From Dehalococcoidia bacterium (GTDB lineage: Bacteria; Chloroflexota; Dehalococcoidia; SHYD01; SHYC01), in the NCBI GenBank assembly GCA_016844365.1, contig JAENIT010000001.1:1-14696 (forward strand): 14,696 bases of DNA, in the 5' to 3' direction. The translations under genes and the position numbers were made by a program. Below are positions 11,698 to 14,696 of the stretch, in pieces. The notes under the pieces were generated by a model. It worked only from the letters and a program-made list of their open reading frames with translations. It was not told the DNA's origin and searched no databases. The stretch's first letter is position 1, and every line of letters starts with the position of its first letter.

Positions 11698-12051
11698 CTA
11701 TATAGCGGTTTCACCTTTTTCACCTGTTCGAACCCTGACGGCGTCCAACACAGGTGTAACGAAGATCTTTCCGTCACCTATCTCCCCATCACCCGCGCTG
11801 CGGGCTGCTGCGATGATCGCTGCGATGACCGCTTCTTTCATGTCGTCAGCAACTACAGTGCGGATCAATGTCTTGGGGACTGCTGACCTGCGTGCCATTT
11901 GGCCGCTCCTGCCTACGAAGACCTCTATACCTCGCTGCCGGCCCTGTCCGGTCACGTTCACATAATAGAAGCCCGGGCATCCAATCTCTTCCAGAGCCTG
12001 AGCGACGTGGTTCACACGCTCTGGCCTGACAATAGCTTCAATACTAATCAT
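11698..12051 (-). CDS. P-II family nitrogen regulatory protein with an atypical T-loop
   Basis: 117 aa (classical P-II proteins are about 112). The core is typical: IEAIVRPERVNHVAQALEEIG at the N-terminus, GQGRQRG at 35-41 with R38 and Q39 of the 2-oxoglutarate/ATP site, GDGKIFVTPV at 92-101 (B-loop) and RVRTGEKG at 106-113 (C-loop). P-II trimers sense ATP/ADP and 2-oxoglutarate and block or release targets, most often the Amt channel. The T-loop is unusual: GIEVFVGRSGQMARRSAVPK replaces the common GHTELYRGAEYVVDFLPK. It is two residues longer, basic, and has Q at position 51 instead of the modifiable Tyr51. There is also an insertion before GDGK. Uridylylation or adenylylation at Tyr51 is therefore not possible. 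The ATG at 12051 has GGAGG 4 nt upstream. It is co-transcribed behind amt, which supports a GlnK-like role on the transporter. Confidence 0.93.
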   Translation of the reverse strand: MISIEAIVRPERVNHVAQALEEIGCPGFYYVNVTGQGRQRGIEVFVGRSGQMARRSAVPKTLIRTVVADDMKEAVIAAIIAAARSAGDGEIGDGKIFVTPVLDAVRVRTGEKGETAI

Positions 12052-12121: not shown

Positions 12122-13333
12122 TCAGTCTGCTCCATCCTGCACATATGCTCGCTCCCCATGGGCGGTGATGTCCATACCTTGCGCTTCAGCAGATTCTGGG
12201 GCGCGAAGGCCCAGACCAGGTATAACGTCCAGGATCTTCAAGATGATTAGCGTTCCGATGCCGGAGTAGGCAAGGGTAGCCAACACTCCGATAACCTGGG
12301 TTACCACCTGTGCTGCGTTGCCTTCTAGTAGGCCGGCTGTACCGCCAATGGCTGCTGCTGCGAAAATACCTGTGGCAATAGACCCCCAGATTCCACAGAC
12401 ACCATGGACGGCGAACACATCCAGAGAATCATCAAGACCGGTCTTCGGACGAAGATAAACGGCAAAGTACCCAAAGAGACCAGCCCCAATGCCGATAGCG
12501 ATCGCACTCATAGCTCCCACGTAGCCGGCCGCCGGCGTTATTGCTACAAGGCCTGCCACGGCTCCGGTGGCTACACCCACCGCGCTCATGCGACGGTTTT
12601 GAAACTGAGAAAGCAATCCCCACGTCAGCGCTGCGGCGGCTGCTGCTGTGTTCGTGACGAGGAAAGCGCTTACTGCCCGTCCATCGGCATTGAGCGCTGA
12701 ACCTGCATTGAAACCAAACCAGCCGAACCAGAGGAGACTAGCGCCCAGCACCACATACGGTACGTTGTGCGGCTCAAGGCCGGGATCGCGGCGTTTGCCC
12801 AATAACATGGCAGCTGCCACCGCTGCAACGCCAGCGTTAATATGGACCACTGTGCCACCGGCATAATCCAAAGCTCCCCGTGTAAACAACCATCCATTTG
12901 GCGCCCAGACCCAATGAGCTATTGGAGAGTAGATGAAGGTCAGCCACAACACCAAGAAAACCAAGTACGTGGTGAACTTAAACCGCTCTACTATCGCCCC
13001 TGTAATGAGCGCTGGAGTGATGATGGCAAACATCATCTGGAATATAACGAAGAGTAGTGTCGGGATGTCACCGCTTAAGTCGTCAATACCAATGCCGGCG
13101 AGACCAACGGCCGAAAGGTCTCCTATGAAGGCGTTACCTTCGCCAAAGGCAAGGCTGTAACCCCAAGACACCCAGACTAAGCTAGCCACCGCCATGGCGA
13201 TGAAGCTAAACATAATGGTGCTTATGACGTTTCTACCGCGTACCAGTCCTCCGTAGAAGAAAGCCAGCCCTGGCGTCATAAGCAGGACCAGTGCAGAAGA
13301 AGCCAGAATCCATGCCGTGTCGCCTGTATCCAT
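12122..13333 (-). CDS. amt: Ammonium transporter (Amt/MEP/Rh family)
   Basis: 403 aa, about 11 membrane segments, trimeric inner-membrane ammonium channel. The N-terminus DTAWILASSALVLLMTPGLA and FFYGGLVRGRN are hallmark Amt segments. The pore histidine pair is H164 (in GGTVVHINAG, with D156 in ALDYAGG) and H310 (in VFAVHGVCGIWG). WFGWFGFNAGSAL at 202-214 is the Amt signature. The cytoplasmic tail GLGLRAPESAEAQGMDITAHGERAY is the region P-II proteins bind. The start is the ATG at 13333, with AAAGGAGG 6 nt upstream; the 16-residue upstream extension (from 13381) is non-family and was left out. The P-II gene follows after 70 bp. Upstream lie a -10 box and a six-element 11-bp-period array resembling GlnR boxes, so expression is probably nitrogen-controlled. 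Confidence 0.97.
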   Translation of the reverse strand: MDTGDTAWILASSALVLLMTPGLAFFYGGLVRGRNVISTIMFSFIAMAVASLVWVSWGYSLAFGEGNAFIGDLSAVGLAGIGIDDLSGDIPTLLFVIFQMMFAIITPALITGAIVERFKFTTYLVFLVLWLTFIYSPIAHWVWAPNGWLFTRGALDYAGGTVVHINAGVAAVAAAMLLGKRRDPGLEPHNVPYVVLGASLLWFGWFGFNAGSALNADGRAVSAFLVTNTAAAAAALTWGLLSQFQNRRMSAVGVATGAVAGLVAITPAAGYVGAMSAIAIGIGAGLFGYFAVYLRPKTGLDDSLDVFAVHGVCGIWGSIATGIFAAAAIGGTAGLLEGNAAQVVTQVIGVLATLAYSGIGTLIILKILDVIPGLGLRAPESAEAQGMDITAHGERAYVQDGAD

Positions 13334-13380: not shown

Positions 13381-13465
13381 CCAGGAGCAGTAATCAGAGA
13401 TGTCTCGATGCTAATACCTATTCCTCCTAATGTGTAAACTCTATCTATCAGTCTAGTCTGGAATT

Positions 13466-13525
13466 GTTACAGTTTTATTTCCTTGTGATGACGATTAGAT
13501 TAAATCCGTGTGAACTTTGCGTTAC
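13466..13525 (-). promoter_or_regulatory. GlnR-box-like array: six 5-bp sites at 11-bp period, upstream of amt
   Basis: Read on the minus strand from 13525, six pentamers are each separated by exactly 6 bp: GTAAC (13525-13521), TTCAC (13514-13510), TTAAT (13503-13499), GTCAT (13492-13488), GAAAT (13481-13477), GTAAC (13470-13466). The actinobacterial GlnR box is known as alternating GTnAC and GAAAC with 6-bp spacers, and other OmpR-family regulators also bind 11-bp direct repeats. The second spacer (ACGGAT) is identical, and the first (GCAAAG versus CTAAAG) similar, to those of the array at 14232-14280. The likely ligand is the adjacent winged-helix protein; this is inferred. Confidence 0.65.
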
Positions 13526-13615: not shown

Positions 13616-13636
13616 AGGAGGCACATGGCGCCTCCT
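13616..13636 (-). terminator. Terminator of the winged-helix regulator gene
   Basis: AGGAGGC (13616-13622) and GCCTCCT (13630-13636) form a 7-bp stem with a 7-nt loop, 31 bp after the regulator stop; on the minus strand it is followed by TTCTTTATG, a T-rich run. This has good intrinsic-terminator form. Confidence 0.7.
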
Positions 13637-13666: not shown

Positions 13667-14041
13667 TTAATCGTCTCTACTGTTTTTGTCTGAGGGCCGT
13701 TCAGTAGCCAGACCGTACCCTCTTTTGTTCACAGTAACGATGCGGTGAGGGCTCAATCTCGCTAGTTTCTTTCTGAGCCGGGCTATGTGGACATCCACCT
13801 TCCTGACCTCTTGCCCCAGCTCTTCCCCCCAGGCCTCTCGCATCAGAGTCACTCGATCAGTGATCTGGCCGACATGGACGGCTAGGAACTTCAGAAGCTC
13901 GAACTCTTTGTAGGTCAGGTCCACGGGCTTGGAATCAACAATAACAGAATAGCGGGATGTGTCTAGAACAAGATTGCCTATCCGCACTGTATCATCGCTC
14001 GGCCCCCCAGTTTCTAGAGAGACCTGTGAAGCTCTCACCAT
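13667..14041 (-). CDS. Stand-alone OmpR/GlnR-type winged-helix DNA-binding protein
   Basis: 124 aa consisting almost only of a Trans_reg_C winged-helix domain (about 18-112): VDLTYKEFELLKFLAVHVGQ at 40-59, the recognition-helix region VRKVDVHIARLRKKL at 79-93 and the wing IVTVNKRGYGLAT at 101-113. The segment DLTYKEFELLKFLAVHVG is very close to the actinobacterial nitrogen regulator GlnR (DLTFKEFELLKYLAQHPG, from memory), though the motif is shared across OmpR-type proteins. No receiver domain is encoded: an in-frame TGA lies four codons upstream of the ATG (14053-14051). The ATG at 14041 has GAGG with 7-nt spacing. Its neighbours are amt, a P-II gene and a nitrite/sulfite reductase, and 11-bp-period arrays flank it. 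The likely role is a nitrogen-assimilation regulator; the name GlnR is not assigned without experiment. Confidence 0.88.
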   Translation of the reverse strand: MVRASQVSLETGGPSDDTVRIGNLVLDTSRYSVIVDSKPVDLTYKEFELLKFLAVHVGQITDRVTLMREAWGEELGQEVRKVDVHIARLRKKLARLSPHRIVTVNKRGYGLATERPSDKNSRDD

Positions 14042-14217
14042 GTATAGCCCTCATAGAACGCTAATATTCCCACTACCGTTGATGATTCGCCTTCTTCACA
14101 ACACAACCAGGAAGCGCTACCTAGACTAGGAACTTCCCATCGAAAGCAACTGCAGCGCACATGACCTCTGCTGGTACTAATTGGCCTCAACGCTAATTAT
14201 CGCTTCCTACTATGTAT

Positions 14218-14246
14218 GTTATATCTAATATGTTTCAGGATAATTA
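14218..14246 (-). promoter_or_regulatory. Weak candidate promoter of the regulator gene, overlapped by the array
   Basis: Minus strand: -10 TATAAC (14223-14218, 5 of 6); 17 bp upstream lies TAATTA (14246-14241), a poor -35 inside the repeat array. It would give a leader of about 170 nt. The overlap of array and -35 fits autoregulation by the array-binding protein. Confidence 0.3.
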
Positions 14247-14280
14247 CTGTATTGTTAAGCTGAAGTAACATCCGTGTTAA
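14232..14280 (-). promoter_or_regulatory. GlnR-box-like array: five 5-bp sites at 11-bp period, upstream of the regulator gene
   Basis: Read on the minus strand from 14280: TTAAC (14280-14276), GTTAC (14269-14265), TTAAC (14258-14254), GTAAT (14247-14243), GAAAC (14236-14232), each separated by exactly 6 bp. A sixth, degenerate AGTTG (14291-14287) keeps the register. This matches the GTnAC-n6-GAAAC layout of GlnR boxes. It shares the spacer ACGGAT and similar flanks with the amt array, which argues for one common binding protein. It lies between the reductase stop and the regulator start, so it can serve only the regulator gene on this strand. Confidence 0.65.
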
Positions 14281-14325: not shown

Positions 14326-14696
14326 TTACAAAGCCATTGCAACAACGGGCTCCTGGATAAGAGATTTACCCACAGCGACCTCTGGTGCAAGGCGGTCTTG
14401 TTGGCCGAGAAGCCCCATTACAATATCAGGCAGATCGGAGCAGGGCACATTCTCCATGACCTTAGTAGAGAGGCTGGGCTCGGCGCCGGAGCGTCCGCCC
14501 ATGTAAATGTCTACAGCATCCACAATCTCACCGTTGATGCGCACTCTCTTCCCCTCCAATCCAATGTCTGCCACGTGATGATTACCGCAACCCGCGGGGC
14601 AACCGGACCAGTACATGGTGAAGGGTGCGGTGTCCCCAAGCCTCTCCTCAAGGGCTTTTGCTGTCTCCATAGCCAGCTCTTTGGTCTCGATAAGGG
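14326..14696 (-). CDS. Ferredoxin nitrite/sulfite reductase, C-terminal part (5' end outside the window)
   Basis: 122 residues of the C-terminal siroheme/4Fe-4S domain. LIETKELAMETAKALEERL follows the usual position of the first cysteine pair (just outside the window), and MYWSGCPAGCGNHHVADIGL contains the C-x3-C pair that ligates the [4Fe-4S]-siroheme centre. VDAVDIYMGGRSG is the typical following segment. The family reduces nitrite to ammonium (NirA) or sulfite to sulfide. The reading frame stays open to the window edge, so the ATG at 14670 is internal. Position next to the GlnR-like regulator, amt and P-II favours assimilatory nitrite reductase, but the visible part does not settle the substrate. 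No clear terminator hairpin follows the stop. Confidence 0.88.
   Translation of the reverse strand, partial: LIETKELAMETAKALEERLGDTAPFTMYWSGCPAGCGNHHVADIGLEGKRVRINGEIVDAVDIYMGGRSGAEPSLSTKVMENVPCSDLPDIVMGLLGQQDRLAPEVAVGKSLIQEPVVAMAL

Follow-up and report, generated by a model that had tools for sequence, protein, structure and literature searches.

A predicted GlnR-type array at the amt-glnB promoter of a Dehalococcoidia bacterium and its conservation in the class

Upstream of the ammonium transporter gene amt of a Dehalococcoidia bacterium (Chloroflexota), pentamers recur on the minus strand every 11 bp. The GlnR pentamers GTAAC/TTAAC/GAAAC and their consensus have been published, and GlnR monomers are described as binding head to tail at such half-sites (PMC10704036, in the portion of the review available). 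Does this array reflect GlnR-type nitrogen control outside Actinobacteria, as an earlier note on this DNA had claimed, and which protein would read it? Here we describe the array in its window (the whole stretch of DNA analysed, 14,696 nucleotides), its conservation in relatives and the candidate regulators. Our preferred reading, to which we assign a probability of roughly 85%, is that it is a predicted binding array for a GlnR-type activator in the amt-glnB promoter. The features of the window that bear on this question are the following.

13466..13525, minus strand: array of six half-sites at 11-bp steps upstream of amt, located in the sequence by scan and matrix
13525-13521 (GTAAC), 13514-13510 (TTCAC), 13503-13499 (TTAAT), 13492-13488 (GTCAT), 13481-13477 (GAAAT) and 13470-13466 (GTAAC), minus strand: half-sites of the amt array
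13450..13455, minus strand: predicted -10 hexamer TAGACT of amt, 10 bp past the final GTAAC, placed by the spacing rule of the class
14232..14280, minus strand: second array, before the 124-aa regulator gene, with five half-sites (TTAAC, GTTAC, TTAAC, GTAAT, GAAAC)
14216..14221, minus strand: predicted -10 hexamer TAACAT, 10 bp past GAAAC of the second array, placed by eye
14326..14694, minus strand: ferredoxin-nitrite-reductase-like gene, 3' part, cut by the window end
13667..14041, minus strand: 124-aa winged-helix (Trans_reg_C) regulator without a receiver domain
13616..13636, minus strand: terminator-like hairpin with a stem of 9 pairs, located after the regulator gene and before the amt array
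12122..13333, minus strand: amt, ammonium transporter, ATG start at 13333 chosen by eye
11698..12051, minus strand: P-II (glnB-like) gene downstream of amt

The six pentamers that had been reported at exact 11-bp steps were all confirmed at their positions. Along 13525-13466 of the minus strand the array reads GTAAC-n6-TTCAC-n6-TTAAT-n6-GTCAT-n6-GAAAT-n6-GTAAC. Both window arrays consist of pentamers of the GTnAC/GAAAC type with 6-nt spacing, and the six-site array stands upstream of a nitrogen gene, amt. The earlier note had also considered six half-sites unusual, and this part of it did not hold. Six are found in 5 of 22 arrays from the Chloroflexota class, and 16 Actinomycetota arrays include three with six sites and three with eight. 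Arrays of this length are already known, since Actinomycetota have six- and eight-site arrays and three boxes are described on S. coelicolor amtB (PMC10704036, portion available). Eight consecutive half-sites were seen in the Actinomycetota amt regions L350, L353 and L357.

The order on the minus strand is nitrite-reductase-like 3' end, array, 124-aa regulator gene, hairpin, array, amt and P-II gene. This order suggests that amt-glnB forms one transcription unit and the regulator gene another, each with an array of its own. The hairpin has the longest stem of seven such matches in the region, against 2.3 expected from shuffles. The nitrite-reductase-like fragment scores below cut-off with NIR_SIR, and its match to PRK09566 (91 bits, E 5.8e-26) lies below the curated cut-off. 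A possible sixth pentamer of the second array, GATAT (14225-14221), was tallied by our scripts; it is left out of the five because it overlaps the predicted -10 hexamer of the regulator gene. Under the scripted -10 rule this array extends by one more step, and TAACAT was not counted. The longest ORF of amt begins with a GTG at 13381; the probable start is instead the ATG at 13333 behind AAAGGAGG. An RNA-element search gave no Rfam match at the gathering score, and a scan for consensus sigma-70 promoters gave 3 matches with 3.1 expected by chance.

A run of short degenerate pentamers might arise by chance in AT-rich DNA. The first window scan used weights set after the motif was known and was replaced by a scan whose matrix came from 20 arrays found in other genomes. 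These are 20 of the 22 class arrays; one near-duplicate and one 3-site array were dropped, and longer arrays contributed their last four sites. With this matrix from relatives the two arrays ranked first and second in the window, with six-site scores of 32.0 (second array) and 29.0 (amt array). Both exceed every six-site shuffle, the maximum over 300 Markov-shuffled windows being 7.2. Shuffling the amt upstream region 2000 times gave p<=0.0005 for the amt array. Over four sites the scores are 23.9 (second array) and 20.4 (amt array), and one shuffled window in 300 reached 21.9. Because this value is above that of the amt array, the significance rests on array length. The test is fair, though not wholly independent, because the training arrays were selected with post-hoc weights. 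Chance is a practically negligible explanation despite that one four-site hit, given six-site scores far beyond every shuffle, an 11-bp register conserved at amt, and a fixed offset to the -10 hexamer that had no role in array selection.

Conservation was assessed in two ways. Counts for the closest Amt relatives, the class, the phylum, glnA, recA and nitrite/sulfite reductase used the unweighted published consensus, a pass being at least 13/16 over four sites. A weighted score with a cut of 13.5 selected the 22 class arrays and the 16 Actinomycetota arrays. The window Amt has 65, 63 and 63 percent identity to its three nearest records, which suggests that the window belongs to the class treated below. 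An array is present in 11 of 78 amt upstream regions of its closest Amt relatives (80 loci minus L031 and L069, which are without upstream sequence). It was found in 8 of 14 Chloroflexota-titled regions and in only 3 of 64 others, two Actinomycetota-titled and one Deltaproteobacteria-titled (L036). The L036 array reads GAAAC-GAAAC-CACAT-GAAAC (14/16) about 60 bp before the Amt match. The two regulators obtained from that genome are of the ordinary type, and the bin may be mislabelled or a transfer may have taken place.

Within the class of G001 (titled Dehalococcoidia; the genome of L001), the period-11 array occurs in 16 of 30 amt regions, while control periods 9, 10, 12 and 13 give 0, 0, 0 and 1 in the same regions. 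The register at orthologous amt regions, which the earlier note had set as a test, is therefore conserved. This sample takes one locus per genome from the best 30 of 49 class genomes with amt, and weighted scoring finds 22 arrays in it. The phylum sample (27 of 30 loci, the three already in the class set being left out) has 4 amt regions that pass at period 11 and 1, 0, 0 and 0 at periods 9, 10, 12 and 13. The positives L287, L291 and L296 come from genomes that the class searches sampled as well; L309 is degenerate. As these positives are mostly class genomes, the signal within Chloroflexota looks restricted to one class.

Enrichment at nitrogen genes more broadly had been named as support; it held for amt and was weak or absent at the other two genes examined. 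Upstream of glnA the array is found in 3 of 30 regions (30 of 47 rows, those with loci), with 0, 0, 2 and 0 at periods 9, 10, 12 and 13. Upstream of nitrite/sulfite reductase it is found in 2 of 25 (25 of 44 rows; L248-L252 of the 30 loci omitted), no better than the 2, 0, 2 and 0 of the same control periods, and nitrite reductase was rejected as an array target. No array was found in 21 recA upstream regions, which represent the 26 RecA rows after removal of five that were weak or paralogous.

The arrays are also fixed in their distance from a putative -10 hexamer. In 15 of the 22 class arrays the last half-site is followed, at a distance of exactly 10 bp, by TAnnnT, whose start lies 15 nt from the first base of that half-site. 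Shuffles gave a mean of 0.36 at this offset and at most 5 at any position. The arrays had been found without use of the downstream letters and the set of 22 is unpicked. CATAAT, GACAAT and CATCAT are near misses among the class arrays that lack TAnnnT. Of the 16 Actinomycetota arrays, which come from 30 loci sampled among 45 amt-bearing genomes, 9 show the same offset as a raw count, and so do 20 of 36 hand-picked arrays that include the two of the window. The window itself has GTAAC, 10 nt, TAGACT before amt and, by eye, GAAAC, 10 nt, TAACAT before the regulator gene. The E. coli pho boxes are likewise 11-bp direct repeats, 10 bp upstream of a -10 TAN3T/A (PMC1906773, portion available). As far as sequence can tell, this spacing is the layout of an activator that would replace the -35 element.

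Candidate regulators were sought in the relatives. Genomes with amt arrays have full-length proteins whose winged helices form, together with actinobacterial GlnR, a clade of 42 rows separate from ordinary response regulators; its support is only 96/73, in a tree of few columns. None of 36 GlnR-like proteins keeps all five phosphorylation residues of the receiver, compared with 19 of 20 ordinary regulators; the phosphorylation Asp is kept in 18 of the 36. In nine genomes (G005, G010, G037, G049, G055, G083, G127, G147 and G154) the GlnR-like gene lies directly upstream of amt with an array between, and in six (G001, G002, G003, G004, G038 and G300) it adjoins glnA. At 13 of 57 sampled loci a GlnR-like gene lies upstream of amt in the same orientation, and at 11 of these the weighted array score is at least 13.5. 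A second GlnR-like paralogue with the AWMEFQLLKFLMEN signature, preceded by an array of its own, was noted at L098:1495-2169 (-) and L101:1474-2268 (-), the former near a P-II-like match.

Array and regulator also occur together. In the class sample, among the matches listed, a profile match at E 1e-22 was found in 18 of 22 genomes with an array and in 2 of 8 without (p=0.007); the test is coarse, with a profile derived from receiver-less proteins and no more than 10 candidates scored per genome. G067, G017, G039 and G045 have an array and no regulator match at this threshold among the matches listed. The regulators obtained from G011-G014, Chloroflexota-titled genomes without the amt array, two per genome, fall outside the GlnR clade.

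Several points count against the GlnR reading: the 96/73 support of the clade in a tree of few columns, the scores with the Pfam GlnR_1st model (PF21695), the 27 of 30 glnA regions without an array although glnA is the classic GlnR target, the 8 of 30 class amt regions without one, and the four genomes with an array and no regulator match. None of eight full-length proteins exceeds the PF21695 cut-off of 27, two having weak scores of 16.6 and 20.4 bits, and the full-length candidates score best with MtrA and PhoB models, all below cut-off. These best scores, together with the 11-bp repeats of the pho boxes 10 bp before their -10 (PMC1906773), would fit arrays that bind another OmpR/PhoB-family regulator, PhoB- or MtrA-like rather than GlnR-type. 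We consider this improbable, as the half-sites GTAAC/TTAAC/GAAAC are the published GlnR pentamers (PMC10704036, portion available), the arrays stand at amt and are absent at recA, and the linked regulators, whose receivers are non-phosphorylatable, fall with GlnR in the tree. GlnR-type control outside Actinobacteria, the central proposal of the earlier note, is as a prediction well supported by the conserved register, the fixed -10 and the GlnR-like regulators beside amt or glnA.

The regulator encoded in the window itself is of another form. Trans_reg_C is the sole domain found in the 124-aa protein, which has no N-terminal receiver domain, and upstream of its gene there is no room for one, the space being occupied by its own array and the nirA end. 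Its best solved relatives are the OmpR-family/transcriptional regulatory proteins 8hih, 8hig and 8hml (E 1e-19 to 5.5e-19), which we take to be GlnR of M. tuberculosis and A. mediterranei. It lies outside the GlnR clade, in a clade of its own with P0002, L111, L114 and P0006 (support 100/96). The recognition helix VDVHIARLRKKL has Ala as in GlnRII, where GlnR has Arg, and Lys where GlnRII has Arg. It does not share a clade with P0005, which was taken as GlnRII-like by helix and length, and its apparent GlnRII likeness is a lead and not membership.

Short-frame matches to the profile number at least seven among 393 class genomes, six of which were examined; G208 is the seventh. Five of the six short genes immediately precede an amt in the same orientation, as confirmed with Pfam (L312 in G046, L313 in G294, L314 in G186, L324 in G083 and L336 in G282); that of G123 does not. 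Four of these five short genes stand behind an array, that of G282 being the exception. The 124-aa protein is a receiver-less relative with its own clade and with kin that also stand beside amt; lacking a receiver and lying outside the GlnR clade, it is a candidate binder of the arrays at most.

The arrays might serve the 124-aa protein alone. In this lineage it would then have taken the place of full-length GlnR, as a local regulator of amt with a single domain and control over its own gene. That gene adjoins amt and has its own array, and five of the six short relatives examined immediately precede amt, four with an array before them. However, a longer-frame match of the same profile is present in four of the five genomes (G294, G186, G083 and G282), the same amt arrays occur in genomes whose obtained regulators are full length, and the recognition helix is unlike that of GlnR. 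We regard this explanation as unlikely. Somewhat less doubtful, and still tentative, is a two-tier GlnR system in the class. The receiver-less protein beside amt, its gene behind an array of the same kind, would bind head to tail on GlnR half-sites and tune, back up or compete with full-length GlnR; the array would be read by DNA-binding domains alone, and array length would replace the receiver contacts of GlnR.

Under the preferred reading of a GlnR-type activator array, winged-helix monomers would occupy the half-sites head to tail, one every 11 bp. The last monomer would lie 10 bp from the -10 hexamer, and the array would span the -35 position. Because the array runs through that position and ends 10 bp before the -10, the bound regulator may replace the -35 element for polymerase recruitment. 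It would recruit RNA polymerase at nitrogen shortage, and the second array would put the 124-aa regulator gene under the same control as amt. A full-length GlnR-like protein, expected elsewhere in the genome, and the 124-aa protein would both use the arrays, presumably with a division of labour between them.

If this is true, GlnR control would no longer be a trait of Actinobacteria alone and would be shared by a large, mostly uncultured class of Chloroflexota. It would supply a grammar for the nitrogen-responsive promoters of the class: pentamers repeated at 11-bp intervals, with TAnnnT 10 bp after the last of them. The natural receiver-less regulators would offer a means to ask the purpose of the odd, non-phosphorylated receiver of GlnR. 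A literature search on GlnR with Chloroflexi or Chloroflexota, with most subscription papers outside its coverage, returned no title on GlnR control in the phylum. The available portion of PMC5924519 contains nothing on GlnR control in Chloroflexota, and the word Chloroflexi is absent from that of the review PMC10704036, which treats Actinomycetes.

Four known systems invite comparison. NnaR of mycobacteria and Streptomyces combines HemD with a winged helix. The 124-aa protein resembles it in a weak PRK07239 match (40.3 bits, cut-off 273) and in the nitrite reductase gene that adjoins its own gene. It differs in that no HemD domain was found in it, and the NnaR motif is palindromic with a spacer of 16 nt (PMC6277429, portion available). 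A protein above the NnaR model cut-off was found in 0 of 24 genomes, the best seven matches covering the HemD part only. The E. coli pho box and PhoB share with the arrays tandem 11-bp repeats that end 10 bp before the -10 (PMC1906773) and the same fold family; they differ in repeat sequence, in the phosphorylation of PhoB by PhoR and in their phosphate genes.

GlnRII of Streptomyces has a GlnR-like winged helix without phosphorylation sites and the recognition-helix Ala (PMC10704036, portion available). It binds the same promoters as GlnR, with a role described as unknown (PMC3087709, portion available). The window protein is shorter (124 aa), lies beside amt and not glnII, and has Lys for Arg. 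Closest is GlnR of Actinomycetota, which is alike in its pentamers, 11-bp step, amt target, degenerate receiver and TAnnnT offset. The system described here differs in its occurrence in a Chloroflexota class, in receivers that score below the cut-off of the Pfam GlnR receiver model, in arrays mostly at amt and seldom at glnA, and in a regulator gene that stands beside amt or glnA.
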